Below, piece by piece: positions 33,064 through 59,048 of a stretch of DNA of 64,000 nt. This stretch comes from Salinibacterium xinjiangense. Its GTDB lineage: Bacteria; Actinomycetota; Actinomycetes; Actinomycetales; Microbacteriaceae. Numbering within the stretch: position 1 is the first letter of the stretch; each line of letters opens with the position of its first letter. The notes below the pieces were generated by a model that saw nothing but the letters and a program-made list of their open reading frames with translations, made no database searches and was not told the origin of the DNA. The position numbers were made by a program, and so were the translations under genes. The DNA is taken from positions 434,001 to 498,000 of the forward strand of contig NZ_BMLC01000002.1 in NCBI RefSeq assembly GCF_014645015.1. Reading direction: 5' to 3'.

Positions 33064-33065
33064 CC

Positions 33066-38759: not shown

Positions 38760-39824
38760 ATGAACCGTCCGCTGCGTGTGGCCGTGATCGGGGCCGGATA
38801 TTGGGGTCCCAACCTCGCGAGAAACTTCCGCGCGAGCACCGATTGGGAGCTCGCGGCGATCTGCGACCTCGATCGCGGGCGCGCCGAGAAGCTGGCTGAC
38901 TCTCTCGGCGGCATCCCGGTTGTGACCGACCTCGACCAGCTGCTCGCCGATCCTGAACTCGACGCCGTCGCCGTTGCCACCCCCGCACGCACCCATCACT
39001 CCGTGGTCATCAGCGCGCTGCATGCCGGTAAGCATGTCGTCGTCGAAAAGCCGTTGGCCGACAGTCGCGAGCATGCACTCGAAATGGTGCGCGAGGCAGA
39101 TGAACGCGGTCTGATCCTGATGGCGGACCATACCTACTGCTACACCCCGGCTGTGATGAAGATCAGGGAACTGATCGAGGATGGCGCGCTCGGCGACATA
39201 CTGTTCATCGATTCCGTGCGCATCAACCTCGGGCTCATCCAGCCCGATGTCGACGTCTTTTGGGACCTTGCCCCGCACGATCTCTCGATCATGGATTTCA
39301 TCCTGCCGGGCGGCCTGAACGCGACCACGGCGGCGGCGCAGGGTGCCGACCCGCTCGGAGCCGGAAAGTCCTGCGTTGGCTATCTCAGCCTCCCGCTTGA
39401 GGGCGGCGCGATCGCGCACGTGCACGTCAACTGGCTCAGCCCGACCAAGATCCGCCAGATGGTTGTCGGCGGCACCAAGCGCACGCTGGTGTGGGACGAC
39501 CTCAATCCGCAGCAGCGCCTTAGCGTGTACGACAGGGGGGTCGATCTCACCCAGGTCTCGACGACGGCAGCCGACCGCGCGGCCGCCACCGTGTCATACC
39601 GGTTGGGCGATACCTGGTCGCCGGCGCTGCCCGAACGCGAGGCGCTCTCTGCGATGGCGACGGAATTCGCTGACAGCATCCGCCTTGCGAGAGCGCCGCG
39701 CACCGACGGTCATGCGGCACTTCGCGTGCTCTCCGTGCTCGAAGCCGCCACTCGGAGTCTTGCCCTGTCGGGCGCCCCCAGCCCTATCGAATTCATCCCC
39801 ATTCCCATGGAGCTCGCATCATGA
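38760..39824 (+). CDS. Gfo/Idh/MocA-family sugar dehydrogenase
   Basis: 354 residues of the NAD-dependent sugar dehydrogenase family that includes WlbA/WbpB. The Rossmann motif VAVIGAGYWGPNLARNF is at the N-terminus, the EKPLA catalytic lysine motif near residue 98, and FWDLAPHDLSIMDF near 170 holds the conserved Asp/His. ATG 38760 follows GGGGAAG. Together with the two aminotransferases and the acetyltransferase that follow, it probably oxidises a nucleotide-sugar to the keto form that is then aminated. Its exact substrate is not determined. It overlaps the next gene by 4 bp. Confidence 0.9.
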   Translation: MNRPLRVAVIGAGYWGPNLARNFRASTDWELAAICDLDRGRAEKLADSLGGIPVVTDLDQLLADPELDAVAVATPARTHHSVVISALHAGKHVVVEKPLADSREHALEMVREADERGLILMADHTYCYTPAVMKIRELIEDGALGDILFIDSVRINLGLIQPDVDVFWDLAPHDLSIMDFILPGGLNATTAAAQGADPLGAGKSCVGYLSLPLEGGAIAHVHVNWLSPTKIRQMVVGGTKRTLVWDDLNPQQRLSVYDRGVDLTQVSTTAADRAAATVSYRLGDTWSPALPEREALSAMATEFADSIRLARAPRTDGHAALRVLSVLEAATRSLALSGAPSPIEFIPIPMELAS

Positions 39825-40816
39825 CCACCATCATGGGTTCGTCAGTTTTTGTCACCGGCGGCGCAGGCACGATCGGATCACACATCGTCGACCAGCTGCT
39901 CGACGCGGGTGCGGCCCACATCGACGTGCTCGATAACCTCGTGCGCGGCCGCCGCGCCAACCTCGAGGAGGCGCTCGCCAGTGGCAGGGTGATGCTGCAC
40001 GACGGCGACATCCGCGACAGGGACCTCGTTCGCGACCTCACGGCCGGTAAGGACCTCGTGTTCCACGAGGCGGCCATCCGCATCACGCAATGCGCCGAAG
40101 ACCCACGCCTCGCCCTCGAGGTCCTTGTGGATGGCACTTTCAATGTTGTGGAGGCGGCGTCGGAGCTCGGCGTCGGAAAGCTGGTCTCCGCGTCCAGTGC
40201 CTCGGTATACGGGCTGGCCGAAGAGTTCCCCACGACCGAGCGCCATCATCACCATAACAACGACACCTTCTACGGCGCGGCCAAGTCTTTCAACGAGGGC
40301 ATGATCCGCAGCTTCCGCGCCATGAGCGGACTCGATTTCGTCATCCTGCGCTACTTCAACGTCTACGGCCCGCGCATGGACGTGCACGGCCTCTACACCG
40401 AGGTGCTGGTGCGCTGGATGGAGCGCATCGCCGACGGAAAGCCTCCGTTGATTTTCGGGGATGGCCAGCAGACTATGGACTTCGTCGTCACCCAGGACAT
40501 CGCCCGCGCCAATATCCTCGCCGCCCAGAGCGATGTAGTCGACGGCGTGTACAACGTGGCGAGCGGCCAGGAGACAAGCCTGCTTGAGCTCGCGCAGGCG
40601 CTGCTGCGAGCGATGGACTCAGAGCTCAGCGTCGAGCACGGTCCCGAACGCGCGGTCAACGGCGTGACACGTCGGCTCGCAGACACGATGGCGGCCCACG
40701 TCGATCTCGGCTTCACCGCCAGGATCTCGCTGGAAGACGGCCTCCGCTCGCTCGTCGAATGGTGGAGCCCACTGCGCGACGAAATCTCGGCCGGAAAGTC
40801 GGAGGCCGTCGCATGA
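39821..40816 (+). CDS. NAD-dependent nucleotide-sugar epimerase/dehydratase
   Basis: 331 residues of the extended short-chain dehydrogenase family. The NAD motif is VTGGAGTIGSHIVDQLL, the catalytic Ser/Tyr/Lys are in SASSASVYG and FYGAAKSFNEG (YxxxK), and RYFNVYGPRM and VVTQDIARANILAA follow. This pattern fits UDP-glucose 4-epimerase-like or dehydratase enzymes. An odd run of four histidines (ERHHHHNN) precedes the catalytic tyrosine. It overlaps both neighbours through ATGA, so is co-translated in the amino-sugar cassette. Confidence 0.9.
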   Translation: MTTIMGSSVFVTGGAGTIGSHIVDQLLDAGAAHIDVLDNLVRGRRANLEEALASGRVMLHDGDIRDRDLVRDLTAGKDLVFHEAAIRITQCAEDPRLALEVLVDGTFNVVEAASELGVGKLVSASSASVYGLAEEFPTTERHHHHNNDTFYGAAKSFNEGMIRSFRAMSGLDFVILRYFNVYGPRMDVHGLYTEVLVRWMERIADGKPPLIFGDGQQTMDFVVTQDIARANILAAQSDVVDGVYNVASGQETSLLELAQALLRAMDSELSVEHGPERAVNGVTRRLADTMAAHVDLGFTARISLEDGLRSLVEWWSPLRDEISAGKSEAVA

Positions 40817-41970
40817 GCCGGGTCAATGTCATGAAGCCGTGGCTCGGCACCGAAGAGGCGGAGGCCGTGGCCGAGGTCATCGCTTCCGGCTGGGTAGCGC
40901 AGGGCCCGAGGGTAGCGGCGTTCGAGGCTGCCTTCGCGGAGACTATGCGGGCGGAGTACGCGGTTGCGACATCCAACTGCACGACAGCCCTTCATCTTGC
41001 GTTGGTGGTCGGTGGTGTCAGTCAAGGGGACGACGTGGTCGTCCCCTCGTTCTCGTTCATCGCCACAGCCAACGCCCCCACGTATGTCGGCGCACGGCCG
41101 GTATTCGCAGATGTCGATCGGCTCACCGGCAACGTCACAGCCGACAGTGTGGTCGCTGCACTCACCGACAGAACGCGCGCCGTAATCGTGGTCGACCAGG
41201 GCGGGATGCCCGTGGACCTGGACGCGATCCGTGCGGTCACCGAACCCCGTGGCATCCTGCTCATCGAGGATGCCGCGTGCGGAGCGGGTTCCACCTACAA
41301 GGGCCGGCCGGTCGGAACGGGCGCCGACATCGCGACCTGGTCGTTTCACCCGCGCAAGTTACTCACCACGGGGGAGGGTGGCATGCTCACGACCTCGAAC
41401 GGTGAGTGGGCGGGGCGCGCGCGCCGGCTGCGCGAGCACGCGATGAGTGTCTCGGCCGCCGATCGTGCCGCAAGCGTCATCGCGCCGCCCGAGGAATACG
41501 GCGAGGTCGGATTCAACTATCGGATGACCGACCTCCAGGCCGCCGTCGGGATCGTGCAGCTCGGCCGGCTGCCTGCGATCGTTGCCAGGCGCCGGGAGAT
41601 CGCGGCGGAATACCGGGCACGCATCGCCGGGATTCCGGGACTGAGGCTCGTCGCTGATCCCGAGTTCGGCACCTCCAACTTCCAGTCGCTGTGGGTTGAG
41701 GTCGACCAGAGCTTTCCTCTGACCCGGGAGCAATTGATCGAAGCGCTCGCCGTGGCCGACGTTTCGGCCAGACGCGGCATCATGGCGGCACACCGCCAGC
41801 CCGCCTACGCGCACCGGGACACCGGATCCGTGCCGCTGCCGATCACCGAGCACTTGAGCGACAACACGCTCATCCTCCCGGTGTTTCACCAGCTGACCGA
41901 CGCTGAACTGCGGCAGGTCGTCGACGTGCTGTCCGGCGCGGCGACGGGCTCGGCCGGGGTGGCGGCATGA
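40813..41970 (+). CDS. DegT/DnrJ/EryC1-family sugar aminotransferase 1
   Basis: 385 residues of the PLP-dependent sugar aminotransferase family. The PLP lysine is Lys182 in WSFHPRKLLTTGEGGML. LIEDAACGAGSTYKGRPVGTG supplies the Asp that contacts the PLP nitrogen, and GFNYRMTDLQAAVGIVQL is the conserved substrate region. It transfers an amino group, usually from glutamate, to a keto nucleotide-sugar. Start chosen at 40813 (ATGA overlap with the epimerase gene). It overlaps the acetyltransferase gene at its end. Confidence 0.92.
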   Translation: MSRVNVMKPWLGTEEAEAVAEVIASGWVAQGPRVAAFEAAFAETMRAEYAVATSNCTTALHLALVVGGVSQGDDVVVPSFSFIATANAPTYVGARPVFADVDRLTGNVTADSVVAALTDRTRAVIVVDQGGMPVDLDAIRAVTEPRGILLIEDAACGAGSTYKGRPVGTGADIATWSFHPRKLLTTGEGGMLTTSNGEWAGRARRLREHAMSVSAADRAASVIAPPEEYGEVGFNYRMTDLQAAVGIVQLGRLPAIVARRREIAAEYRARIAGIPGLRLVADPEFGTSNFQSLWVEVDQSFPLTREQLIEALAVADVSARRGIMAAHRQPAYAHRDTGSVPLPITEHLSDNTLILPVFHQLTDAELRQVVDVLSGAATGSAGVAA

Positions 41971-42605
41971 ACCGACCGCTGCTGCTCATTGCCGCGAGTG
42001 GTCTCGCGCGTGAGGTACTGCCAGTGCTGCACGAGTCCGGCCGGGCCGTGCTCGGATTCCTCGACGACCGGCACGGCGAGTTACCGCGAACGATCGGCGG
42101 TGCACCAGTGCTCGGAAGTCTCGACAGCATCCGGCTCTATCCGGATGCCGATGTGCTCGTCTGCATCGGTTCCGGAACCGGTCGCGAGCGGGTCGTCGCG
42201 ATGCTCAGCGGGCTCGGCGTCGACGCCACGAGGTACGCAACGATCGTCGATCCGTCGGTGCGAAACGTCGGCGCGAGTCCGGTCGGGGTAGGGTCCATCC
42301 TGCTCCCTGGCGTCGTCATCACCGCGGATGCCGTCATCGGTGCGCATGTTGTCGCGATGCCGCACGTGACCATCACCCACGACTGCCTCGTCGACGATTT
42401 CGTCACCCTCGCTGCCGGTGTCGTGCTCGGCGGGGGCGTACACATCGGGCGCGGCGCCTACCTGGGGATGAACGCCTCGGTTCGCCAGGGTGTCTCGATC
42501 GGCCCGGGAGCCACGATCGGCATGGGTGCCGTCGTGCTCACCGACATCCACGATTCGGGCATCTGGGCGGGCGTCCCGGCCCGGCCGTTGGGGGTGACGG
42601 CATGA
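41967..42605 (+). CDS. Hexapeptide sugar O/N-acetyltransferase (NeuD type)
   Basis: 212 residues. The N-terminal Rossmann-like part (LLLIAASGLAREVLPVLHESG, VLGFLDD) and a C-terminal left-handed beta-helix with hexapeptide repeats (GVGSILLPGVVITADAVIGAHVVAMPHVTITHDCLVDDFVTLAAGVVLGGGVHIGRGAYLGMNASVRQ) match the NeuD/PglD/WbpD group. The catalytic His is probably in TITHDC. It acetylates an amino-sugar made by one of the flanking aminotransferases. Overlaps both neighbours by 4 bp. Confidence 0.9.
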   Translation: MNRPLLLIAASGLAREVLPVLHESGRAVLGFLDDRHGELPRTIGGAPVLGSLDSIRLYPDADVLVCIGSGTGRERVVAMLSGLGVDATRYATIVDPSVRNVGASPVGVGSILLPGVVITADAVIGAHVVAMPHVTITHDCLVDDFVTLAAGVVLGGGVHIGRGAYLGMNASVRQGVSIGPGATIGMGAVVLTDIHDSGIWAGVPARPLGVTA

Positions 42606-43717
42606 CCGTGCCATTCCTCGACCTGGCCGCGCAGAGCGCAGAGATCGCCGAGGAGGTACTGCCCGCCTGGCAGCGACTGTTCGATTCCGCTGGATTCATC
42701 GGGGGCAGCGAGATTGACGCTTTCGAGCGCGAGTATGCGGACTACCTCGGTGTCGGCCACGTGATCGGCGTCTCCAACGGGACGGATGCCCTCGAGCTCG
42801 CCTGTCGTGCGGTCGGTGTCGGCCCCGGTGACGAGGTCATCATGCCGGCCAACACCTTTATAGCCACCGCGGAGGCCGTCTCGCGCATCGGCGCCATACC
42901 TGTCTTCGTGGATGTCGACGACGAGCACCTGCTCATCGACCCCGATGCCGTCGAGGCCGCTGTCACGAGCCGCACACGGGTCATCCTGCCGGTGCACCTG
43001 TTCGGCCAGACTGCTCCAGTCGAGCGTGTCCTGCCGATCGCTCACAGGCACGGAATCGCCGTCGTCGAGGATGCCGCACAGTCGCAGGGCGCGTCGTCGG
43101 CGGCCGGGCGGGCGGGTGCCATGGCGCATATCTCCGCCACGAGCTTCTACCCGGGCAAGAACCTGGGAGCCGCGGGAGACGCTGGAGCCGTGATGACCGA
43201 TGATGCGGACGCCGCTGCGCTGGTTCGCAAGCTCGCCGCTCACGGCAGTTCTACGAAGTATGTACATGAACACATCGGTATGAACGCGAGGATGGATGCG
43301 ATCCAGGCGCCGGTGCTGCGCGCGAAACTGCGCAGGCTCGACGGCTGGAACGCCGCGCGTCGCGAGGCAGCGGACCGCTACTCCACCCTGCTTGCCGACC
43401 TCGACAATGTGCGTACGCCGACGGTGCGTCCCGGCAACATCGATGCCTGGCACCTGTACGTGGTGCGCCTGCCTGACCGTGAGCGGGTCATGGCGGAACT
43501 CACCGCGGCGGGCATCGGCGTCGGCATCCACTATCCGACGCCTGTACATCTGACCGAAGCATATTCCGGGCTCGGATACCAGCGCGGCCAGTTCCCGGTA
43601 GCCGAGGCGGCGGCCGACGCGATCCTGTCGCTGCCGATGCACCCGCACCTGAACGCTGGGCAGCAGGAGCGGGTCGTCTCTGCGCTGCGCGCCGCGGTGA
43701 ACCCGTTCAGGGCATGA
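42602..43717 (+). CDS. DegT/DnrJ/EryC1-family sugar aminotransferase 2
   Basis: 371 residues, a second PLP sugar aminotransferase, closer to the FdtB/QdtB branch. The PLP lysine is Lys186 in SFYPGKNLGAAGDAGAV, with VVEDAAQSQGA, GMNARMDAIQAPVLRAKL and the C-terminal VGIHYPTPVHL. Two different DegT enzymes in one cassette imply either a diamino sugar or two separate amino sugars in the repeat unit. Last gene of the tightly overlapping amino-sugar block; the next start is 16 bp further on. Confidence 0.92.
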   Translation: MTVPFLDLAAQSAEIAEEVLPAWQRLFDSAGFIGGSEIDAFEREYADYLGVGHVIGVSNGTDALELACRAVGVGPGDEVIMPANTFIATAEAVSRIGAIPVFVDVDDEHLLIDPDAVEAAVTSRTRVILPVHLFGQTAPVERVLPIAHRHGIAVVEDAAQSQGASSAAGRAGAMAHISATSFYPGKNLGAAGDAGAVMTDDADAAALVRKLAAHGSSTKYVHEHIGMNARMDAIQAPVLRAKLRRLDGWNAARREAADRYSTLLADLDNVRTPTVRPGNIDAWHLYVVRLPDRERVMAELTAAGIGVGIHYPTPVHLTEAYSGLGYQRGQFPVAEAAADAILSLPMHPHLNAGQQERVVSALRAAVNPFRA

Positions 43718-46236: not shown

Positions 46237-47837
46237 ACGGTCGGCGCGGGGACGCTGATCTCGAGCGATCCGCGGAGAACGAGTGGGCACCACCCAGCGC
46301 TATCCCGAGTGCAACGCCCGGATCGACGGACGCGGTGGAAGAGGCGGCTGTCGGGCGGCAGGCGGCCTCCGGCGTGCTGTGGCTCACAGCGCAGAAGTGG
46401 ACGATACGCCTTCTCGGCTTCGTGACCATTGCTGTGCTTACCCGACTGTTGAGCCCAGAAGATTTCGGCACGGTTGCTGCGGCATCCACGATTCTGCCGT
46501 TCTTCTACCTTCTGGCCGATCTGGGGTTCGCCGCATACATCGTGCAGGCAGCGAAAGTTAACCAGCGGATGCTCAGCACGGCTTTCTGGTTCTCGGTGAG
46601 TGCTGGCGCGGTGCTGTGCGCCGTGCTGTTCGTCATCGCGCCGCTGATGGGAGCCCTGTTCGGAGATCCCGGAGTCGTACCAGTGCTGCAGGCCCTGTCG
46701 TTCTGGGTGATCCTCACCGCGTTCGGTTCCGTCCCCATGGCTATGCTCCGGCGCAGCATGCGTTTCGCCGTGCTCGCGGGGCAGGGCGCGATCGCTGCGG
46801 TCATCGCCCAGGTGGTCGCGATGGTGATGGCGTTCAGCGGCATGGGGGTGTGGGCCCTCGTCGGGCAGAGCCTCGTGGCGCCGACGATCACGACGATCCT
46901 GGCCTGGATCAGCACACGCTGGCATCCCAACCTCATGTTCTCGCGGCGCGAGTTCGCGACCCTAACCCGCTTCGGTGGGCAGGTTCTCGGAGTCGAGTTC
47001 GTTGCGATGGTGAGGGCCTCCGGTGAGGCCGCGGTCATCTCGTCGACGCTCGGGCTCGCGGCCCTCGGTTACATGAACATCGCGCAACGCCTCGTGCAGG
47101 TCGTCCAGGACCTCACGGGGGGCGCGATTGTGCCGGTGACGACTGTCGCGTTCGCTCGAATCCGGGAGAACCAGGATCGCCTGCTCAGCGCTTACCTGCG
47201 TGCCCTGCGCATGTCGTATGCCGCGCTGTCTCTTCCCCTCACGATCGTCGCGGTGGCCGCACCGATGATCGTCCCGATTCTGTTCGGTGCGGCTTGGGAA
47301 ACGAGTTACCCGGTCGCTCAGATCCTGGCCATGGCGGGTGCTCTCACCGTTGGCGCGTGGCTCGACCATGGCTTGTTCTATGGTGTGGGGAAGCCGGGAA
47401 AGTGGTTCGTGTACGCCCTCGTCATCGATGGAATCACGTTCGGTATGACCGCGATACTCGTGCACAGTGGACTGATCGCCGTGGCCTGGGGGTTCCTCGG
47501 AGTGTGTGTGGTCGCCACGATCAGCCGATGGTTCCTCGTCGCGCGGATCCTGTCGGCGCCTGTTCGTCGGATTGTCGGTCCTTTCCTGTTCATGATCACC
47601 GCGGTCGTGACCTCCGGTGCTGCTGGATGGGGGGTCATGCTGATCACCACCAGCCTGCCCGACGTGGTATCGATCGTGCTGGTCGGAGCGGCCGTGACCC
47701 TGGTCCACGTGACGGTGACCAGGATGCTCGCGCCACAGGTGATCTCAGAGGGGCTCATATTTATCGCTCGCTCCCGGTGGGGGCGACGCATCCCGATCCT
47801 TCGAAACAGACGGGTCACCAGTGATGCGACGAGCTGA
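46233..47837 (+). CDS. Polysaccharide flippase (Wzx-like, MOP superfamily)
   Basis: 534 residues with about 12-14 helices. After a 50-residue acidic cytoplasmic start it reads GRQAASGVLWLTAQKWTIRLLGFVTIAVLTRLLSPEDFGTVAAAS, the typical first two helices of the PST/Wzx group, and continues with GYMNIAQRLVQVVQDLTGGAIVPV. It should flip the lipid-linked repeat unit to the outside for polymerisation. ATG overlaps the previous stop (ATGA); the end overlaps the next gene by 17 bp. Confidence 0.92.
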   Translation: MNGRRGDADLERSAENEWAPPSAIPSATPGSTDAVEEAAVGRQAASGVLWLTAQKWTIRLLGFVTIAVLTRLLSPEDFGTVAAASTILPFFYLLADLGFAAYIVQAAKVNQRMLSTAFWFSVSAGAVLCAVLFVIAPLMGALFGDPGVVPVLQALSFWVILTAFGSVPMAMLRRSMRFAVLAGQGAIAAVIAQVVAMVMAFSGMGVWALVGQSLVAPTITTILAWISTRWHPNLMFSRREFATLTRFGGQVLGVEFVAMVRASGEAAVISSTLGLAALGYMNIAQRLVQVVQDLTGGAIVPVTTVAFARIRENQDRLLSAYLRALRMSYAALSLPLTIVAVAAPMIVPILFGAAWETSYPVAQILAMAGALTVGAWLDHGLFYGVGKPGKWFVYALVIDGITFGMTAILVHSGLIAVAWGFLGVCVVATISRWFLVARILSAPVRRIVGPFLFMITAVVTSGAAGWGVMLITTSLPDVVSIVLVGAAVTLVHVTVTRMLAPQVISEGLIFIARSRWGRRIPILRNRRVTSDATS

Positions 47838-49158
47838 CATCACACCTCACGTGCTCATCATCGTGCAGAACCTCCCGGTGCCCCTGGATCGGCGGGTGTG
47901 GTTGGAGTGCCAGGCGCTCATCGCGCGTGGGTATACCGTGAGCGTGATCTGTCCCAAGGGTCCAGGGGATCCCGCGCGCCAGCGCATTGATGGCGTCGAC
48001 ATCTACAAGTACATGCCGGCTCCGGAAGCGCGGGGGCTGCGTGGATACGTCTGGGAATTCGCGTACAGCTGGGTGTGCACGGCATGGCTCTCGCTGGCGG
48101 TATGGCGTCGCCAACCGTTCGAGGTCATCCAGGCGTGCAACCCGCCGGACACGTTCTGGCTCCTGGCGCTCATCTGGCGCAGTCGTGGAGTCCGGTTCAT
48201 TTTTGACCATCACGACCTCAACCCCGAGCTGTTCCTCTCCCGGTTCGGCGCGCCGAAGAGCATCGGGCAGAGGCTCCAGTACGCGGGGCTGAAGTGGCTG
48301 GAGCGGCGATCCTTCCGCACCGCGGACCGCATCACGTCGACGAACGAGTCGTACAAGGCGATCGCCATCCGTCGGGGCGGGCGCCGTCCGGACCATGTGA
48401 CCGTCGTTCGCAGCGGGCCGGACACGAAGCAGATGCGCCCGATCTATCCGGCGAACCCTCGCCCCGTGGACGGGATCAACCTCGCGTACCTCGGCATCAT
48501 GGGGCCGCAGGACGGCGTCGATCAGGTCCTCCTGGTCATGGATGAGCTCGTGCACCATCGCGGCCTCACGCAGGTGAGCGCGACCCTGCTTGGATTCGGC
48601 GACTGCCTCGAGGATCTCAAGCGGCAGTCGACGGCGTTGGGGCTCGACGATCACGTCACCTTCACCGGGCGGGTCGATCGGGTCGCGATAGCCGAGCATC
48701 TCAGCCGCACCGACATCGGCCTCTGCCCTGACCTCAAGACACCACTCAACGACCTGTCCACCATGAACAAGACGATGGAGTACATGGCGTACGGCTTGCC
48801 CGCCGTCTCGTTCGACCTGGTGGAGACGCGGGTGTCCGGCGCGGACACGCTGCTCTATGTGCCGAGCGGCGACATCGGCGCCTTCGCCGACGCCGTCGAG
48901 AAGCTGATCGCCGATCCGGTGCTGCGCGTTCAATTGGGAGAGAAGGCGCGCGAGCGGGTGTCGTCGCAGCTCGACTGGCGTCCGCAGGCGGAGGCCTACG
49001 TCGGGGTCTTCGACCTCGTCTCCGGATTCAGCCAGCCGGGGCCGGCCGTTCCGGACGACGGGACGAAGCCGCAATCCGACGCGCAGGGACGACGGTACGT
49101 CGACCTCGACGATCCCGCCGAGTTCGCTCGCTTCCTTCGCGAGCGGAGGGCACAGTGA
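47821..49158 (+). CDS. Family 4 glycosyltransferase (WbuB-like)
   Basis: 445 residues, GT-B fold. The N-terminal half has VLIIVQNLPVPLDRRVWLECQALIARGYTVSVICPKG and RGVRFIFDHHDLNPEL; the donor half has NLAYLGIMGPQDGVDQVLLVMDEL, FTGRVDRVAIAEHLSRTDIGLCPD and NKTMEYMAYGLPAVSFDLVETR. This is the pattern of GT4 enzymes such as WbuB/CapM. A GTG at 47821 precedes an ATG at 47824; both start inside the flippase gene. Overlaps the following ligase gene by 4 bp. Confidence 0.92.
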   Translation: MMRRADITPHVLIIVQNLPVPLDRRVWLECQALIARGYTVSVICPKGPGDPARQRIDGVDIYKYMPAPEARGLRGYVWEFAYSWVCTAWLSLAVWRRQPFEVIQACNPPDTFWLLALIWRSRGVRFIFDHHDLNPELFLSRFGAPKSIGQRLQYAGLKWLERRSFRTADRITSTNESYKAIAIRRGGRRPDHVTVVRSGPDTKQMRPIYPANPRPVDGINLAYLGIMGPQDGVDQVLLVMDELVHHRGLTQVSATLLGFGDCLEDLKRQSTALGLDDHVTFTGRVDRVAIAEHLSRTDIGLCPDLKTPLNDLSTMNKTMEYMAYGLPAVSFDLVETRVSGADTLLYVPSGDIGAFADAVEKLIADPVLRVQLGEKARERVSSQLDWRPQAEAYVGVFDLVSGFSQPGPAVPDDGTKPQSDAQGRRYVDLDDPAEFARFLRERRAQ

Positions 49159-50738
49159 GCCGGATCCGAACGAACCTCCACCATCTGCTGGCGCAGGCGG
49201 CCGAACAGGCGCCGGGCTCGGCGGCGCTCACGTACAAGAAAAACACCTTCACCTACGGTGACCTCTGGGACACGGTGCGCGCCGCCGCCGGACAGTTGCA
49301 AGAGCTCGGGCTCCAGCCGGGCGACCGCGTGGCGATCTACCTCGAGAAGCGCCTCGAGCTGGTTGTTGCGATGTTCGCGACATCGGTGGCAGGCGGCGTA
49401 TTCGTCCCGATCAATCACGTCCTCAAGCCCGCGCAGGTCGGGCACATCGTCGCGGACAGCGGCGCGCGATTCCTGGTGACCTCGGCCGATCGGCTCGCCC
49501 AACTGTCCGCCGTGCTCGAGGACGGCTCGGTGGAGCACGTCGTGGTGGTCGGCCCTGCGGCGGAGGCGGCTTCCTCGCACTATCGCGTCTCGCTGCTGCG
49601 CGACCGCATCGACCGCGGGAGCGTCGACGGCGAGGCCGAGCCGCGCGAGTCTGCGGCAATCGACCTCGACCCGGCAGCGATCCTCTACACCTCGGGAAGC
49701 ACGGGCAAGCCCAAGGGGGTCGTGCTCAGCCACCGCAACCTCGTCGTCGGGGCGGAGAGCGTGAGCACGTATCTCCGCAACACCGCTGACGACGTGATTC
49801 TGAGCATCCTGCCGCTGAGTTTTGACGCGGGGCTCAGCCAGGTGACGACCGCATTCTCGGTCGGTGCGCATTGCATCCTCATGAACTACCTGCTGCCGCG
49901 GGACGTGCCCAGGCTGTGCGCGCAGCACGGCGTGACCGGCATCACCGGGGTGCCTCCGCTCTGGCTGCAGATCGCCGACGCGGCGTGGCCCGAGGAGGTC
50001 GCCCTGCGCGTGCGCTACTGGGCCAACACGGGTGGTCGGATGCCGCGCGCCGTCCTCGATCGGCTCCGCGGCATCTTCACGAATGCCGACCCGTACCTGA
50101 TGTACGGGCTGACCGAGGCCTTCCGCTCGACGTATCTCGACCCGAGGGAGGTCGACCGCCGTCCGGACTCGATCGGGAAAGCGATCCCCAACGCGGAGAT
50201 CCTCGTGTTGCGACCCGACGGCACGCGGTGCGAACCCGGCGAAGAGGGCGAACTGGTGCACCGTGGAGCACTCGTCGCGCTGGGGTACTGGAACGATCCC
50301 GAACGGACGGCCGAGCGGTACCGTCCTGTGCACCACACCGGTCAGCCGTGGCGCGCGCCGGAGCTGGCCGTCTGGTCGGGCGACACCGTGGTTGCCGATG
50401 ACGAGGGATTCCTGTACTTCGTCGGCCGGACCGACGACATGATCAAGACCTCGGGGTACCGAGTGAGCCCCAGCGAGATCGAGGAGGCGGCGTATGCGAC
50501 CGGTGTGGTGCGGGATGCCGTCGCACTCGGAATCGAAGAGGTCGGGATCGGACATCGGATCGTCCTCATCGCGACGGCCGTGGACGGGGTCCTGGACACG
50601 ACAGCCCTGCTCACCGCGCTCCGGCAGGCGTTGCCGCTGTACATGGTGCCGTCGCTGATCGATGTCCGCGACGAGCTGCCGCGCTCACCGAACGGTAAGT
50701 TCGACCGCAATCTCTTGAAAGCACAGGTGTCCGCATGA
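49155..50738 (+). CDS. AMP-forming acyl/aminoacyl ligase of the exosortase-locus type
   Basis: 527 residues of the ANL adenylating superfamily. It activates a carboxylate with ATP and loads it on a thiol. The phosphate loop is ILYTSGSTGKPKGVVLSHRNL, the A5 motif YGLTEAFRSTYL, the hinge GRTDDMIKTSGYRVSP, and the C-terminal catalytic lysine region RSPNGKFDRNLL. The order ligase, PLP decarboxylase and carrier protein resembles the TIGR03098/TIGR03099 pair of Gram-negative exopolysaccharide loci, and BtrJ/BtrK/BtrI of butirosin synthesis. A likely job is to load an amino acid or other acid on the carrier protein at 51979. GTG start overlapping the previous stop. Confidence 0.88.
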   Translation: MSRIRTNLHHLLAQAAEQAPGSAALTYKKNTFTYGDLWDTVRAAAGQLQELGLQPGDRVAIYLEKRLELVVAMFATSVAGGVFVPINHVLKPAQVGHIVADSGARFLVTSADRLAQLSAVLEDGSVEHVVVVGPAAEAASSHYRVSLLRDRIDRGSVDGEAEPRESAAIDLDPAAILYTSGSTGKPKGVVLSHRNLVVGAESVSTYLRNTADDVILSILPLSFDAGLSQVTTAFSVGAHCILMNYLLPRDVPRLCAQHGVTGITGVPPLWLQIADAAWPEEVALRVRYWANTGGRMPRAVLDRLRGIFTNADPYLMYGLTEAFRSTYLDPREVDRRPDSIGKAIPNAEILVLRPDGTRCEPGEEGELVHRGALVALGYWNDPERTAERYRPVHHTGQPWRAPELAVWSGDTVVADDEGFLYFVGRTDDMIKTSGYRVSPSEIEEAAYATGVVRDAVALGIEEVGIGHRIVLIATAVDGVLDTTALLTALRQALPLYMVPSLIDVRDELPRSPNGKFDRNLLKAQVSA

Positions 50739-51961
50739 AGCCCCACGAGCACATGGCCACGTTCGGCACCCTGGACGGCGAGCTTCGCGTGGGTGGGATG
50801 CCGCTGTCGCGACTGGCGGCGCGCGTCGGGTCGACCCCCTTCTTCGCCTACGATCGCGACATCCTGGATGACCGTGTCGCGAGACTCCGTGGGGCGTTGC
50901 CGCCCCGCGTCGAGCTCAGCTATGCGATGAAGGCCAACCCGATGCCAGCGGTGGTGCAGCACCTCGCCACCCGGGTCGACCGCATCGACGTGGCATCCGC
51001 GGGGGAGATGCAGGTAGCGCTCGACTCGACGATCCACGCCGACCGGGTCAGCTTCGCGGGGCCGGGGAAGTCGCCAGCGGAGATTCGTCAGGCCGTCGCG
51101 GCGGGGATCATCGTCGAAGTGGAATCCACCACCGAGATCGAGCGGGTGATCAAGGCTGCTGAGGAGCTCGGACTGACACCCAGGATCGCCATCAGGGTCA
51201 ATCCGGACTTCGCGGTGAAAGGGTCGGGCATGCGCATGGGCGGTGGCCCGCAGCAGTTCGGCATCGATGCTGAGCTCGTGCCGGCTGTTCTGCGTAGGTA
51301 CTCCACGGCAGGGCTCGACATCATCGGGTTCCACATTTTCGCCGGATCGCAGAATCTCAACGCTGCCATCATCGCCGAGGCGCAACGCAGTACGGTCGAC
51401 CTCGTGAGCCAGCTCGCCGAGCACCTCGCCGCACCGGTGCGGTACCTGAACCTGGGAGGCGGTTTCGGCATCCCCTACACAGCGAAGGATCAGCCCCTTG
51501 ATCTCGATGCGGTAGCTGCCGGCCTCCACGCTCTGGTCGACGGGCCGATCACCGAGCGGATGCCCGAGGCGACGCCGGTCATCGAGCTCGGCCGCTACCT
51601 CGTCGGCGAGTGCGGGGTGTACGTCACCCGCGTGCTCGATCGCAAGGTCTCTCGCGGCAAGACCTACCTCGTCGTCGACGGGGGCATGCACCACCAGCTG
51701 GCGACGACCGGCAACTTCGGGCAGGCGATTCGGCGCAACTATCCTGTGATCGTGGGAAACCGTACAGACACTCCCGCCGACGAGAATGCCACTGTCGTGG
51801 GCTGTCTCTGCACTCCCCTCGACCTGCTCGCAGACGATATCGAGCTGCCGCTCGCGGGGATCGACGACCTCATCGTCATCTTCCAACAGGGCGCCTACGG
51901 CCTGACCGCCAGCCCGACCGCATTCCTGGGGCACCCTGCACCTGCAGAAGTGCTTGTCTGA
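50735..51961 (+). CDS. Fold-III PLP-dependent decarboxylase, exosortase-locus type
   Basis: 408 residues of the alanine racemase-like barrel family that includes DAP, ornithine and arginine decarboxylases and BtrK. The PLP lysine is Lys66 in ELSYAMKANPMPAVV, with VASAGEMQVAL, FHIFAGSQNLN, the phosphate-binding LGGGFGIPY, and ELGRYLVGECGVYVTRVL; CTPLDLLADDIELP supplies the catalytic Cys/Asp. Sequence alone does not tell free amino acids from ACP-bound substrates. Its position between the ligase and the carrier protein argues for an ACP-bound aminoacyl substrate, as for BtrK. ATGA overlap with the ligase gene. Confidence 0.88.
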   Translation: MKPHEHMATFGTLDGELRVGGMPLSRLAARVGSTPFFAYDRDILDDRVARLRGALPPRVELSYAMKANPMPAVVQHLATRVDRIDVASAGEMQVALDSTIHADRVSFAGPGKSPAEIRQAVAAGIIVEVESTTEIERVIKAAEELGLTPRIAIRVNPDFAVKGSGMRMGGGPQQFGIDAELVPAVLRRYSTAGLDIIGFHIFAGSQNLNAAIIAEAQRSTVDLVSQLAEHLAAPVRYLNLGGGFGIPYTAKDQPLDLDAVAAGLHALVDGPITERMPEATPVIELGRYLVGECGVYVTRVLDRKVSRGKTYLVVDGGMHHQLATTGNFGQAIRRNYPVIVGNRTDTPADENATVVGCLCTPLDLLADDIELPLAGIDDLIVIFQQGAYGLTASPTAFLGHPAPAEVLV

Positions 51962-51978
51962 CATTGAACGGAGCAGCC

Positions 51979-52236
51979 ATGACCGATACTCTCGACGCCG
52001 TACGAAGCGTGCTGATCGACACGCTCGAGCTTGCGCATCAGCCGTCCGACCTTCAGCGCGATACCGTGCTCTTCGGTGCACTCCCCGAACTCGATTCCTT
52101 CGGTGTCGTGCAGCTGGTCGCCGAGCTCGAGCAGCGCTTCGATATCACGATCGACGATGACGAGTTCGGTGCCGATCTGTTCGAAACGGTAGGAAGCCTT
52201 ACCGACTTCGTCGATGGCAAGCGCGCGAGGGGATAA
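51979..52236 (+). CDS. Acyl carrier protein
   Basis: 85 residues. Ser40 in ELDSFGVVQLV is the predicted 4'-phosphopantetheine site (the common motif is DSL; here DSF). The acidic four-helix pattern and FDITIDDDEF after it fit the family. GGAG lies 5 nt before the ATG. It follows the decarboxylase gene by 17 bp. As a stand-alone carrier in a polysaccharide locus it probably tethers the substrate of the ligase and decarboxylase rather than serving fatty-acid synthesis. Confidence 0.88.
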   Translation: MTDTLDAVRSVLIDTLELAHQPSDLQRDTVLFGALPELDSFGVVQLVAELEQRFDITIDDDEFGADLFETVGSLTDFVDGKRARG

Positions 52237-52252
52237 CGGCCTCGTGCTGCTC

Positions 52253-53113
52253 TCACCACGCGACGAGTGTGAGTTCGCTATACAGGTAATCGATGTCCCG
52301 GGCGTCGATGCCATCCCCGCGGAACATTTTGGGTCGCGGGTTGCGCAGCGCGGTGCCTGGACCGCGAGAGAAGCCGAGCACCCGATGTTCGGCGAGGGTG
52401 AAGAGCAGCCCCTTTCCCAGCAGGTGAGACCGGATAGCCCCCCACGCGCCCTCGATGTACTCCGTGCTGCCGCCCGCGTACAACGGTGTGGCGAACAGCC
52501 GAAGCCCTTTGCGGCGATCGCGACGGAACATCAGGTATCCGTACTCACCGTCACCCTCGACGAGCAGATGTTCCACGGCCGCAGCATGGAGATGGTCTCG
52601 GTAGACGAGCGAATCCCGTCCGACGAGAACGCGTTCGAGAGTCGCCGGATCGCTTGTCAGTTGACGATGACGAGGTGGCAGGTGCGGGAGGTTCACCACG
52701 AGTCGTGTCGAGGTGTCGAGGCGCTTAAAGCCGAGTCGCTCGTTCATGGCGACGACATTCCCGCTGGGGGAGAGGTCGACGAAGACGAACCCGGGTTGTT
52801 TGAGAATTGCCCGGATGAGCTTGAGACTGTGCGCCCGGAAGCCCTCGAGCACACAGAATGCCGCCAGGTTGCAGACGTCGATCGTGGTCCCGTCCACCTC
52901 CCGTTGCGAGTAGACCGCAACATAGGCGCCGACGACAGCGCCGTCATCACTGGTGAGCTGGAATCCGCGATTGGGGCCGGTGTCTTCCCACGGCGGCATC
53001 AGGAGTTTCTGCCACGCCTCGGACGACACCCTGCTGTTGAGGTTCTGGTGCAGGAATGCGCTCACGCGGCCGGCATCCGCCGAGGTTATCGGATGCACGC
53101 CGGGGTTCGCCAT
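52253..53113 (-). CDS. GNAT-like acyltransferase beside the carrier-protein module
   Basis: 286 residues, the only gene on the reverse strand in this part of the locus. The GNAT pattern is visible: ITSADAGRVSAFLHQNL, GFQLTSDDGAVVGAYVAVYS, VCNLAAFCVLEGFRAHSLKLIRAIL and NVVAMNERLGFKRLDTSTRL (motif B). The C-terminal half (about 150-286) is unusual for a single GNAT and may be a second, divergent copy. Because it sits against the carrier-protein gene, transfer of the carrier-bound group to a sugar amine is an attractive role, not proven. Stops and starts face its neighbours, so it has its own promoter. Confidence 0.7.
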   Translation of the reverse strand: MANPGVHPITSADAGRVSAFLHQNLNSRVSSEAWQKLLMPPWEDTGPNRGFQLTSDDGAVVGAYVAVYSQREVDGTTIDVCNLAAFCVLEGFRAHSLKLIRAILKQPGFVFVDLSPSGNVVAMNERLGFKRLDTSTRLVVNLPHLPPRHRQLTSDPATLERVLVGRDSLVYRDHLHAAAVEHLLVEGDGEYGYLMFRRDRRKGLRLFATPLYAGGSTEYIEGAWGAIRSHLLGKGLLFTLAEHRVLGFSRGPGTALRNPRPKMFRGDGIDARDIDYLYSELTLVAW

Positions 53114-53163: not shown

Positions 53164-54030
53164 ATGACGAGCGTCATCATCGCGGCCCATAATGAGGAAG
53201 CCGTGATCGGAGCGTGTCTCGATGCGCTGCTTCACCAGACTGCCTCCGATCAGCTGCACATCGTCGTCAGCGCCAACGCCTGTTCGGATGCCACGGTCGA
53301 CATCGCTCGGGCTCGAAAGGTGACGGTCGTAGACCGGCCGGAGCCCGGGAAAGCCGCAGCCCTCAATGCCGGCGAGCTCGTCACCTCCGGATTTCCCCGC
53401 ATCTATCTCGACGCCGATATCGTCGTCCCGCCGAACGCAGTGACGGACTTCGCGGCGGTTCTGGCCGAAACGCCCGGCATCCTCGCGGCCGTGCCGCGCC
53501 GACGGCTGAATATGGCCGGGCGACCCTGGCTCGTGCGCGCCTACTTCTCTATCAACGGGTGTCTTCCGGCTTTCACCGAAGGGCTCTTCGGCCGGGGGAT
53601 GATCGCTTTGTCTGCCGAGGGGCGAGCCAGATTCGCCGCGTTTCCTGAGATGGTTGCCGACGATCTCTTTCTGGACTCACTGTTCCTGGCAGACGAGAAA
53701 GTAATCGTCACCGCGGTGGAGGTCGTCGTCGAAGCGCCGTTCACCCTCCGCGACCTGATGAATCGGCTCGTCCGGGTTCGCCGCGGCAATCGCCAGTTGC
53801 GCGACGCGGCACGAACAGGCCAGGTTGGCCTTCCGGTGCGGCAATCTGACAAGCGTGCCTGGCTGCAGGTCGTTGCCCGCGAGCCGCACCTGGTTCTCGC
53901 GATCATCCCCTACGTGGCGATCACGCTCGTCGCAGCGCGACGCGCCCGCAGAACGATGTCGAGTTCAGACTGGGGTCGGGATGAAAGCACGCGGGTGGGC
54001 CCAGTAATTCGGGAAGGTGACAATCGATGA
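53164..54030 (+). CDS. Family 2 glycosyltransferase
   Basis: 288 residues, GT-A fold: SVIIAAHNEEAVIGACLDALLHQ, IVVSANACSDATVDIA, GKAAALNAGE and the DXD motif in IYLDADIVV. A single hydrophobic helix near residue 250 (LVLAIIPYVAITLVAARRARR) could tether it to the membrane. Overlaps the deacetylase gene by 4 bp, so the pair may act on the same unit. Confidence 0.88.
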   Translation: MTSVIIAAHNEEAVIGACLDALLHQTASDQLHIVVSANACSDATVDIARARKVTVVDRPEPGKAAALNAGELVTSGFPRIYLDADIVVPPNAVTDFAAVLAETPGILAAVPRRRLNMAGRPWLVRAYFSINGCLPAFTEGLFGRGMIALSAEGRARFAAFPEMVADDLFLDSLFLADEKVIVTAVEVVVEAPFTLRDLMNRLVRVRRGNRQLRDAARTGQVGLPVRQSDKRAWLQVVAREPHLVLAIIPYVAITLVAARRARRTMSSSDWGRDESTRVGPVIREGDNR

Positions 54031-54680
54031 TCACCAATCTCTGCTTCCACGGGGTGGGCGTGTGCGCACAGGAACGTGAGCCGGGGGAGGCCAGGTACTG
54101 GGTTTCCGAGCCGGCGTTCCTGCGCATTCTCGATCTCGTGCTCGATCGGCCGGATGTCTCGATCAGTTTCGACGACGGCAATCGTTCCGATCTGGACATC
54201 GCCTATCCTGCGCTCAAGGAACGAAACCTGCCGGCCACCTTCTTTGCGCTGGCAGGGCGACTGGAGGATTCCGCGAGCCTCAACCCCGTCGACCTCCGGG
54301 AGCTTCGAGCCCAGGGAATGGATGTCGGCACGCACGGCTGGTCGCACATTCCGTGGACGAGGCTCTCGCCAGCCGATGTGGTCCGGGAGTTTAGCGACGC
54401 TCGTGAGTTGCTGGCCGAAGCGAGCGGAGGAGAGATCCTCGATGCCGCACTGCCGCTCGGCCGGTACGACCGACGAGCTCTCTCGCAATTGCGTGATGCG
54501 CGCTATCGCACGGTGTTCACGAGCGATCGTTTCCGGGCTAACGCCGGATCCTGGCTGCAGGCTCGCTACAGCGTCACTGCCACGGACACCGTTGACTCGA
54601 TGCGAACACTGCTCAGTCGCCGGGCGACGCTGTTGGAGGCACGAAACGTCACGGCAAGCCTGGTGAAGAGGATTCGTTAG
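54027..54680 (+). CDS. Polysaccharide deacetylase-like protein (NodB fold)
   Basis: 217 residues of carbohydrate esterase family 4. The metal and catalytic motif is VSISFDDGNRSDLDIAYP, the zinc histidines are in VGTHGWSHIPW (H-x3-H), and LPLGRYDRRAL replaces the usual RPPYG motif. There is no signal peptide, so it would act on a cytoplasmic nucleotide- or lipid-linked sugar. It may remove an N-acetyl group to free the amine that the carrier-protein module could then acylate (inference). Its last 32 bp overlap the end of the convergent glycosyltransferase gene. Confidence 0.85.
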   Translation: MITNLCFHGVGVCAQEREPGEARYWVSEPAFLRILDLVLDRPDVSISFDDGNRSDLDIAYPALKERNLPATFFALAGRLEDSASLNPVDLRELRAQGMDVGTHGWSHIPWTRLSPADVVREFSDARELLAEASGGEILDAALPLGRYDRRALSQLRDARYRTVFTSDRFRANAGSWLQARYSVTATDTVDSMRTLLSRRATLLEARNVTASLVKRIR

Positions 54681-57238: not shown

Positions 57239-57479
57239 TGCCCCACACTCCCGTGCGACGATCCGGATTTCGCGGGCGGATGAACCGCCATTCGAGACCA
57301 CGAAAAGCGCACTGCGGTGCAGCCCGCCGAGCCGAGTCTACCGAGGCGAGTCCGCTGGGCAGTAGCGGGCCGGCCGAGGCGGATTTTCCGACGCTCGGAA
57401 GATGAAAGATTGTGTAGTACGCGCGCAGGTGCGGCGATGGCCTTGAATTCCCCTATATTATGTGCCACCATCGCTTCAC

Positions 57480-58964
57480 ATGACCTTCTCTCGGCCACGT
57501 TCCATAGTCGCGCTTATCGTTGCGCTGTCAGTCTTCTCTACCGGAGCAGTCGCATCCGCCGCCATCGCGGCCCCCTCCGGGCCTGAGCTTCGGCCCGCCG
57601 CGTCCGCCGCGACCATCTGGGGAAACTCGAAGCCGACCGGTGTCTCCCTGGATAAAGATACGAGCGCTGCTGAGCTCGGTACCAGGTTCACTCCCAGCGT
57701 CAGTGGCCAGGTGACATCGATCCGCTTCTTCAAGCCAGCCGGTGCAACCGGGGTGCACACAGGCTCGATCTGGGCGCCAGACGGTACCCGGATGGCGAAC
57801 GTGACCTTCAGAAACGAAACCGCATCGGGATGGCAAACTGCGGCGCTGGCGAAGCCTGTGGCGCTCAAGTCCGGAACACCGTATGTCGTCTCGTACCGGG
57901 TTCCCGCCGGGGGCTATTACGCCTCGACGGAGAACTTCACGGGAGGATCCGCTTCGTCGCTGGTTTCGGTCTCACAGCGAAACTCGGGCGTCTACACCTA
58001 CTCCGCGCCGGGAACTCAGCCCCGCTCACAGTGGCGCTCGAGCCAGTACTGGGCTGACGTCGTGTTCAGTGCGGAGGGAACGCGGAGCTTCAGCGGCCCC
58101 CTGAAGCCCATGCCGCTGCCGGTGCCCACCGTGACGCCCACACCGCCATCCGCCCCGGCCCCCACAAAGGGGTTCCCGACTCGGGACAGCGCAGGGTTGC
58201 CCAATGGTTGGCAACCGACCCAACAGGTCAGCGGCAACTACTATGTGCGCCAGGCTGGCGCAGTCGTACAGGATCTCCGCATCACCGACGGCACGATCAT
58301 CATCGAGGCAGCGAATGTGACGCTGCGTCGCATCGACTACGTAGGCTCCACCGTGATCAATGGGATGGGGTCGACGTGTTACCCAAATCTTCTCATCGAA
58401 GACTCGGACTTCACCGCCAACGGCAGGACGAGTGACACCGACAACCCCGTCATCCAGTTCGGAGGCTACACGGCGCGCAACATCGTCGTCGATGGGGTTC
58501 CCGAAGGGCTTCGAGTCGGTGGATCTGACATCAATTGCGGGCCAGTGTCGGTCATCGACTCCTTCATCCGGGTGAAGTCCCCTGACGCGTGCACAGATTG
58601 GCACGGAGACGGCATCCAGGGGTACGGCGGAAGCAAAGTCACTGTACGCAACACCACCCTAATCATGCAGGTCGTCAACGAGTGCTATGGCACATCGCCG
58701 TTCTTCTACCCCAAGAACCAGGGCAACACCGAGGTGGATATTGACGGTTTGCTCGTGGGCGGGTCGAGTGGATATCCATTCCGAAGTGGCATGCCGGGAC
58801 CGGTCAAGAATCTGAACGTCATCGACGGTAGTTGGGTCTACGGGCCGGTTGACGTGAACTGTTCTGTGGTTACCGCATTCCAGGCCCAGGTCGTCAAGCT
58901 GGATGCCGCAGGGCAGCCTGTCAGCACCGGCAAAGCAATCGATTGCACGGGGCAGGGAAACTAA
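57480..58964 (+). CDS. Secreted DUF4082 protein with a beta-helix domain
   Basis: 494 residues. Signal peptide SIVALIVALSVFSTGAVASAAIAA, then one DUF4082 domain (about 45-195: ELGTRFTPSVSGQVTSIRFFKPAGATGVHTGSIWA...ASGWQTAAL), a Pro-rich linker (PVPTVTPTPPSAPAPTKG) and a C-terminal domain with repeated short strands and Asn/Asp ladders (VTLRRIDYVGSTVINGMG, NLLIEDSDF, VSVIDSFIRVKSPDAC, KVTVRNTTLIM), typical of a right-handed parallel beta-helix of the pectate-lyase kind. It may bind or cleave the polysaccharide. The ATG at 57480 is chosen by the signal peptide; a GTG at 57462 is in frame. No clear ribosome site. The 241 bp before it hold divergent promoters. Confidence 0.82.
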   Translation: MTFSRPRSIVALIVALSVFSTGAVASAAIAAPSGPELRPAASAATIWGNSKPTGVSLDKDTSAAELGTRFTPSVSGQVTSIRFFKPAGATGVHTGSIWAPDGTRMANVTFRNETASGWQTAALAKPVALKSGTPYVVSYRVPAGGYYASTENFTGGSASSLVSVSQRNSGVYTYSAPGTQPRSQWRSSQYWADVVFSAEGTRSFSGPLKPMPLPVPTVTPTPPSAPAPTKGFPTRDSAGLPNGWQPTQQVSGNYYVRQAGAVVQDLRITDGTIIIEAANVTLRRIDYVGSTVINGMGSTCYPNLLIEDSDFTANGRTSDTDNPVIQFGGYTARNIVVDGVPEGLRVGGSDINCGPVSVIDSFIRVKSPDACTDWHGDGIQGYGGSKVTVRNTTLIMQVVNECYGTSPFFYPKNQGNTEVDIDGLLVGGSSGYPFRSGMPGPVKNLNVIDGSWVYGPVDVNCSVVTAFQAQVVKLDAAGQPVSTGKAIDCTGQGN

Positions 58965-59048
58965 ACAGTTCGACGTCCATCTCAGGAGGGTGCCTACCTA
59001 GCCCGTACCGCCTCCGGCTCGCTATTCTTGCGGGGTGGGGGTGAGTCG

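Follow-up and report, generated by a model that had tools for sequence, protein, structure and literature searches.

A five-gene, exosortase-independent cassette in a Salinibacterium xinjiangense polysaccharide locus and its proposed role in building an amine-bearing side group on a carrier protein

Introduction

Why does a polysaccharide locus of an actinobacterium carry a ligase, a decarboxylase and a carrier protein of the kind otherwise associated with exosortase systems? The question is raised by a 64,000-nucleotide stretch of the Salinibacterium xinjiangense genome (assembly GCF_014645015.1, contig NZ_BMLC01000002.1, positions 434,001 to 498,000), which we call the window. Here an AMP-forming ligase, a fold-III pyridoxal phosphate (PLP) decarboxylase and a stand-alone carrier protein, together referred to as the trio, are followed by a gene for a GNAT-like protein. 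A preliminary description of this DNA proposed that a decarboxylated amino acid is built on the carrier and moved by the GNAT-like protein to an amino sugar, with the free amine possibly supplied by a nearby deacetylase-like enzyme and two aminotransferases. We find that the trio, the GNAT gene and the deacetylase gene are linked and that the decarboxylase is not of the LysA type, and so retain those parts of the proposal; the aminotransferases are not members of the module. Our results make it probable that the five genes constitute an exosortase-independent cassette that decorates a surface polysaccharide with an amine-bearing acid built on the carrier.

Results

The five genes travel together across genomes. 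Among 249 genomes of the window's family, decarboxylases scoring above the TIGR03099 cut-off and matches to our GNAT profile fall in the same 6 genomes, which come from six genera (hypergeometric 3e-12, without correction for kinship). In one of the 6 (G130), the GNAT and deacetylase genes are on a different contig from the trio. A protein search with the deacetylase recovered those 6 genomes (56-100% identity) and one distant match (33%) in genome G022. Across 396 genomes of the phylum, TIGR03099 was above cut-off in 2, both with the GNAT gene, and 22 further genomes, all from one family (f18), gave a weaker TIGR03099 match and no GNAT; because the GNAT profile, A1, was built from trio loci, remote trio-free GNAT relatives could be missed at the limits used.

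A second survey started from the GNAT gene. Two peptide patterns yielded 126 relatives, of which the best 80 were kept, so that this sample leans to close relatives, and about 10 kb of fetched flank at each locus was searched by tblastn with the window's proteins. Decarboxylase and carrier were in the flank of 72 loci, the deacetylase in 68 and the ligase in 67, and the GNAT gene lay directly upstream of the ligase (46) or the decarboxylase (4), on the same strand, in 50 of the 80. The flanks of 8 loci, some of them cut by contig ends, lacked the decarboxylase, and 7 of these 8 keep the deacetylase next to or near the GNAT gene. The genome search for these loci covers seven genomes, as L098 shares its record set with L097; all seven have a TIGR03099-type gene, six of them above cut-off. 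Nocardioides GNAT genes at L087, L093, L097 and L098 are paired with a deacetylase, with no decarboxylase in the flank. The co-occurrence of GNAT gene and trio, which the preliminary description had offered as a check and whose absence was to refute its proposal, is far beyond chance in both surveys. The deacetylase, to which it had given a possible amine-supplying role, also travels with the module, and this strengthens the idea of an amine acceptor.

The association extends to rhizobia. Rhizobial loci account for 19 of the 80, with the trio in 18 and the deacetylase in 17. On pSymB of Sinorhizobium meliloti the order is GNAT (annotated as hypothetical), ligase, decarboxylase, carrier, glycosyltransferase and deacetylase, and the decarboxylase has matches in 27 Sinorhizobium plasmid records. 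One contig filed as Stenotrophomonas maltophilia (L073) carries a locus close to the Microbacteriaceae ones (decarboxylase 77%, GNAT 51%), which reflects either contamination or transfer. In one genome of the phylum set, G278 (L158, 3331-6504), a GNAT relative is followed by a carrier, with no TIGR03098 match at E 1e-110 and no decarboxylase; the neighbors are genes for an alpha/beta hydrolase, a second carrier, a lipoyl E2 and a thiamine pyrophosphate E1. Because this genome keeps the GNAT-carrier pair without ligase or decarboxylase, the partner of the GNAT protein seems to be the carrier, and the set perhaps gives the transferase another route to a carrier-bound acyl group.

The unit is present or absent as a whole at one type of locus. 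DUF4082 proteins mark this locus type and occur in 26 of the 249 family genomes, all 6 module genomes included. As a control set, we fetched 12 of the 20 DUF4082 genomes without the module, 11 of which covered the locus (L177 did not). None of the 12 module-free control loci matched the ligase, decarboxylase, carrier, GNAT or deacetylase at E 1e-4, while the shared backbone was present in the 11. Since the five genes are absent together from comparable loci with this backbone, they form one exchangeable unit, gained and lost together inside a common polysaccharide locus. Both aminotransferases are kept by 10 of the 11 module-free loci of the same type; they consequently lie outside the cassette, and their assignment to an amine-supplying module is rejected. 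Gene linkage thus gives good support to a cassette composed of the carrier module, the GNAT gene and the deacetylase gene.

The decarboxylase is not a LysA enzyme. The preliminary description had pointed to TIGR03098 and TIGR03099 for the ligase and decarboxylase, and both score above the NCBI cut-offs: 721 bits for the ligase (cut-off 592) and 565.5 for the decarboxylase (cut-off 478). Against the LysA model TIGR01048 the decarboxylase reaches 249 bits, under the cut-off of 298. Its best match by phmmer among PDB sequences is BtrK (271 bits), followed by SbnH (154) and the best diaminopimelate (DAP) decarboxylase, that of Aquifex (147.5). The structural model (mean predicted local distance difference test score [pLDDT], 86.6; residues 321-333 and 391-398 below 50) also retrieves BtrK first by Foldseek E-value (8.8e-38), with SbnH at 5.4e-35 and the first DAP decarboxylase at 7.6e-32. 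The lysine named earlier, Lys66, is kept in all 93 aligned decarboxylases, within KAN in 92 and KSN in 1. All 93, the window's included, have the motif CTPLD, whereas the four LysA proteins compared have CE[S/A/T]. The form CTPxD is common to BtrK, SbnH and two trio-type enzymes, from Paenibacillus and Streptomyces; a Paracoccus trio-type enzyme has CTSID, and a Geobacillus plasmid enzyme annotated as a DAP decarboxylase has CTPAD. The 3.0-Mb genome that contains the window has one decarboxylase over the TIGR03099 cut-off and a separate LysA-type gene elsewhere, with the motif CESGD. In our tree the four LysA proteins form one clade (100/100) that includes no TIGR03099-type enzyme. A LysA-type decarboxylase, which would have refuted the preliminary proposal, is ruled out by the sub-cut-off TIGR01048 score, the CTPLD motif and the separate LysA-type gene, and these comparisons, with the BtrK matches and the tree, support an enzyme that is not LysA.

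The ligase and carrier have the features of an amino acid-loading pair. The best PDB matches of the ligase are amino acid adenylation domains of nonribosomal peptide synthetases (NRPSs), namely, linear gramicidin synthase. Asp224 and Arg324, the latter three residues past the YGLTE motif, are invariant in 86 of 86 aligned ligases. We take the Asp, whose placement is firm, to be the residue that binds the amino group in adenylation domains (PheA position 235). The Arg presumably corresponds to PheA position 330, a mapping that depends on placing a two-residue gap after the YGxTE motif, and it is therefore only a hint of an acidic substrate. Together, the two residues agree with an amino dicarboxylic acid substrate, without proving it. 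Four genomes (L120, L121, L122 and L134) have GNAT, decarboxylase and carrier but no TIGR03098 match at E 1e-110, and in all four a divergent AMP-binding gene lies near this set. The carrier matches PF00550 with 32 bits (gathering score, 20.8), and Asp39-Ser40 is present in all 82 aligned carriers of the 83 found (L138 was excluded because of its length), which agrees with the stand-alone carrier bearing Ser40 that had been read from the sequence.

The GNAT protein represents an unnamed family, currently annotated as "hypothetical protein." Pfam gives no match to it at E 0.01, and no NCBIfam model scores it close to a cut-off. The predicted structure (mean pLDDT, 94.5) matches GNAT-fold structures, so the earlier label "GNAT-like" was right; the best Foldseek E-value is 9.6e-09, and among the matches listed the closest are the two-lobed members Eis, N-myristoyltransferase and MAB_4324. 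An alignment of 67 sequences has 21 invariant columns, including Cys81, Asn82, Asp113, Asp173-His174, Glu242 and Tyr278-Glu280. The usual GNAT loop reads R/Q-x-x-G-x-G/A. In this family, R93 is found in 67 of 67, position 96 is G in 33, S in 32 and T in 2, and position 98 is R or K in 64. Distant relatives of the protein lie beside carrier, ligase and decarboxylase genes in Shinella (hhalign E 4.7e-18) and Devosia crocina (E 2.4e-12). Homology with the FemAB protein of exosortase A (XrtA) loci was considered and rejected, as hhalign gives a probability of 0.2% with the protein of the Sphingomonas XrtA locus L140 and there is no Pfam match to FemAB (PF02388). A hidden exosortase system was likewise rejected: the absence of an exosortase, noted earlier for the window, extends to the whole genome, where PF09721 has no match at E up to 0.1 (the control was positive in M. 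jannaschii only; PEP-CTERM proteins were not searched for).

Ligase-decarboxylase pairs also occur in other settings. We looked at 12 of the 22 genomes of f18, another actinobacterial family, with a sub-cut-off decarboxylase, and all 12 loci contain carrier, ligase and decarboxylase. Where sequence upstream of the carrier was available (11 loci), the neighbor was a tandem-GNAT gene in 10, and a FemAB-type gene came first in 1. Trios with NRPS, ketoacyl synthase III (KAS III) or P450 genes are found in Streptomyces and Paenibacillus. On a Burkholderia plasmid (L141), a ligase and decarboxylase 50 and 55% identical to those of the window have genes for an acyl-CoA dehydrogenase and KAS III as neighbors; no glycosyltransferase, carrier, GNAT or deacetylase was seen at this locus, which is likely a small-molecule cluster. 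The pair thus recurs where enzymes act on thioesters, which fits on-carrier decarboxylation, and in its exchangeable polysaccharide form it comes with GNAT and deacetylase. In Gemmobacter and Tritonibacter plasmid records (H66, H67, H70 and H71), the decarboxylase match falls under a gene annotated as an acyl-CoA dehydrogenase, perhaps a fusion.

The surrounding locus encodes a priming glycosylphosphotransferase, amino-sugar enzymes, glycosyltransferases, a Wzx-type flippase and a Wzy_C-domain protein (Table 1). The gene set first read at 49155-53113 (ligase, decarboxylase, carrier and GNAT-like) was confirmed from open reading frames (ORFs) and profile matches. The trio genes are codirectional, with overlapping ligase and decarboxylase frames and other ends that nearly touch; the GNAT gene is convergent with them. 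The family-2 glycosyltransferase adjoins GNAT and deacetylase in related loci and has weaker homologues at module-free loci as well. Directly 5' of the ligase, the family-4 glycosyltransferase recurs in L031-L035 (77-88% identity) and is also present in 2 module-free loci at 66-68% identity, so it is not specific to the cassette. Scans for repeats, promoters and terminators gave nothing useful.

Table 1. Features of the polysaccharide locus (positions in the window)
Feature	Position	Strand	Basis or remark
TIGR03098 AMP-forming ligase, proposed amino acid--carrier protein ligase	49155..50738	+	Profile score, NRPS-like PDB matches
Fold-III PLP decarboxylase, TIGR03099 (Lys66), proposed aminoacyl-carrier decarboxylase	50735..51961	+	Profile score, BtrK match
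Stand-alone phosphopantetheinyl carrier protein (Ser40)	51979..52236	+	PF00550, Asp39-Ser40
GNAT-fold protein, unnamed family, proposed carrier-dependent N-acyltransferase	52253..53113	-	Model, Foldseek, co-occurrence
Family-2 glycosyltransferase, between GNAT and deacetylase	53164..54030	+	PF00535; start codon chosen by eye
Polysaccharide deacetylase-type enzyme, proposed source of free amine, cassette member	54027..54680	+	PF01522
Family-4 glycosyltransferase, directly upstream of ligase	47821..49158	+	PF13692/PF13579
Amino-sugar backbone: short-chain dehydrogenase/reductase (SDR) dehydratase/epimerase, DegT aminotransferase, NeuD-type acetyltransferase, second DegT aminotransferase	39821..43717	+	Outside the cassette
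Priming glycosylphosphotransferase	31543-33063		TIGR03025 above cut-off
1896-amino-acid ORF with five DUF4082 domains, Big_5 repeats and an N,N-dimethylformamidase-like C-terminal domain	33018-38708		Flanks the locus
Second DUF4082 protein	57462-58964		Flanks the locus
Two ORFs without Pfam or NCBIfam match	59028-60496		Many loci of this type, with or without the module, have homologues

Discussion

The linkage of the five genes and the families to which their products belong suggest a pathway in four steps. The ligase would activate the side-chain carboxyl of an amino dicarboxylic acid by adenylation, with glutamate and aspartate as the most likely substrates, and attach the acid to the phosphopantetheine arm of Ser40. 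The TIGR03099 enzyme, judged by its similarity to BtrK, would then remove the alpha-carboxyl on the carrier to leave an omega-aminoacyl thioester, which would be 4-aminobutyryl from glutamate or beta-alanyl from aspartate. The deacetylase would free an amine on a sugar of the growing saccharide, and this amine would receive the carrier-bound acyl group through the GNAT protein. The predicted product is a polysaccharide with an amide-linked, positively charged side group. Such a pathway would be new in joining a butirosin-type decarboxylation on a carrier with deacetylation and N-acylation of the Nod factor or holdfast type.

Several observations weigh against this pathway. The comparison with BtrK, proposed in the preliminary description, is divided: BtrK ranks first by Foldseek E-value, but several DAP and D-ornithine decarboxylases have template modeling (TM) scores of 0.82-0.85, equal to or above the 0.80-0.82 of BtrK. 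The tree does not join the window's decarboxylase to BtrK, so that a sister relationship of the two is not shown, and in it the window-type enzymes lie closer to the LysA clade than to BtrK (92/80; the branches are long and the bootstrap is not settled). Structural matches of the GNAT protein are moderate, with TM scores of 0.46-0.60 and root mean square deviations of 5.3-10 among the 50 matches listed, and in the window its gene, being convergent with the trio, is not cotranscribed with it. No deacetylase was seen in the fetched flank of 12 of the 80 GNAT loci, and the 12 f18 loci have a trio and other GNAT-fold genes with no deacetylase match. Lastly, the surroundings of the Burkholderia pair at L141 indicate that ligase and decarboxylase are not tied to polysaccharide.

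What the GNAT protein acts on is the point at which one alternative departs. Butirosin synthesis protects its intermediate, which is a model for capping of the carrier-bound omega-amine by the GNAT protein, for example, through acetylation with acetyl-CoA, with the transfer left to another enzyme. Acetyl-CoA is a common substrate of GNAT enzymes, the sugar acceptor is a proposed one, and the model of the GNAT protein resembles acetyltransferases such as Eis as much as it does N-myristoyltransferase. We nevertheless consider capping unlikely, given that no other transferase travels with the cassette in our survey, that the deacetylase stands beside the GNAT gene in 7 of the 8 loci whose flank lacks the decarboxylase, that GNAT keeps a carrier in G278 without ligase or decarboxylase, and that the third small residue of the usual GNAT loop is basic in 64 of 67 sequences.

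Two further alternatives concern the trio itself. It could make a free or lipid-linked small molecule and be a mere neighbor in polysaccharide loci, as might be expected from the trios or pairs near NRPS, KAS III, P450 and acyl-CoA dehydrogenase genes in Streptomyces, Paenibacillus and Burkholderia plasmids. That genomes of the window's family either have or lack the cassette at one conserved polysaccharide locus, and that rhizobial and actinobacterial cassettes are ringed by glycosyltransferases, with a deacetylase in 68 of 80 loci, makes this quite unlikely. It is also conceivable, and in our judgment very unlikely, that the product of the decarboxylase is a free diamine or amine, derived from an amino acid or its sugar-linked form, while ligase and carrier serve a different acyl group. 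Fold-III decarboxylases are described as acting mostly on free amino acids (PMC8503589), and the tree leaves kinship with LysA possible; yet CTPLD replaces the LysA motif in all 93 sequences, BtrK is the best match, the ligase and decarboxylase frames overlap in the window and the carrier comes next in most loci.

If carrier-built acids are indeed passed to deacetylated sugars, the consequences reach beyond S. xinjiangense. The NCBI names of TIGR03098 and TIGR03099 give an exosortase A association and no chemistry, and the cassette would give both families a reaction. It would also define a new GNAT family, predict cationic side groups on polysaccharides of soil and symbiotic bacteria, and offer a hypothesis that can be tested on the corresponding enzymes of exosortase systems. 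We hold tentatively, as a real possibility, that the pathway is general: actinobacteria and rhizobia, including many S. meliloti strains with the genes on the pSymB megaplasmid, may amidate deacetylated sugars of surface polysaccharides with a carrier-made omega-amino acid through the new GNAT family, independently of exosortases. In exosortase A loci, the orphan ligase and decarboxylase would then be accounted for by the same reactions, with a FemAB protein or another GNAT-fold protein as the transferase.

The cassette can be compared with four known systems. Our literature search found no paper naming TIGR03098, TIGR03099 or "exosortase A system-associated," and searches of titles and abstracts on 4-aminobutyryl polysaccharides, on exosortase with decarboxylase or carrier and on carrier-bound glutamate with polysaccharide found nothing that describes the cassette. 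The XrtA loci share its ligase and decarboxylase, as the window's proteins exceed both family cut-offs, and the Sphingomonas locus L140 contains the pair, a carrier, a deacetylase and a FemAB-type gene. The window departs from these loci in its transferase, which differs from the XrtA FemAB, and in the lack of any exosortase match in its genome. In the Caulobacter holdfast system, HfsK, a GNAT/Fem-type protein, is proposed to acylate amines exposed by the deacetylase HfsH (PMC5362036), a logic similar to ours. HfsK is nearest to Fem proteins, whereas the window's GNAT family has no FemAB match, and a ligase-decarboxylase-carrier set is not described for the holdfast in the part of that source at hand. 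Nod factor synthesis likewise combines deacetylase, acyltransferase and carrier, with NodA using acyl carrier protein after deacetylation by NodB (PMC5080398). The proposed acyl group here differs in being an omega-amino acid rather than a fatty acid, the GNAT protein has no NCBIfam match, and the deacetylase scores 20.8 bits against the NodB model (cut-off, 240). The precedent for decarboxylation on a carrier is BtrK with BtrI in butirosin synthesis (PMC7857480). Both systems have a carrier and, as proposed here, on-carrier decarboxylation, and BtrK is the closest solved structure to the window's decarboxylase by phmmer and Foldseek E-value. The butirosin ligase BtrJ is an ATP-grasp enzyme, so the AMP-forming ligase of the window would perform an analogous and not a homologous step, and the cassette differs further in its GNAT-fold transferase and in an acceptor that is probably a polysaccharide sugar.

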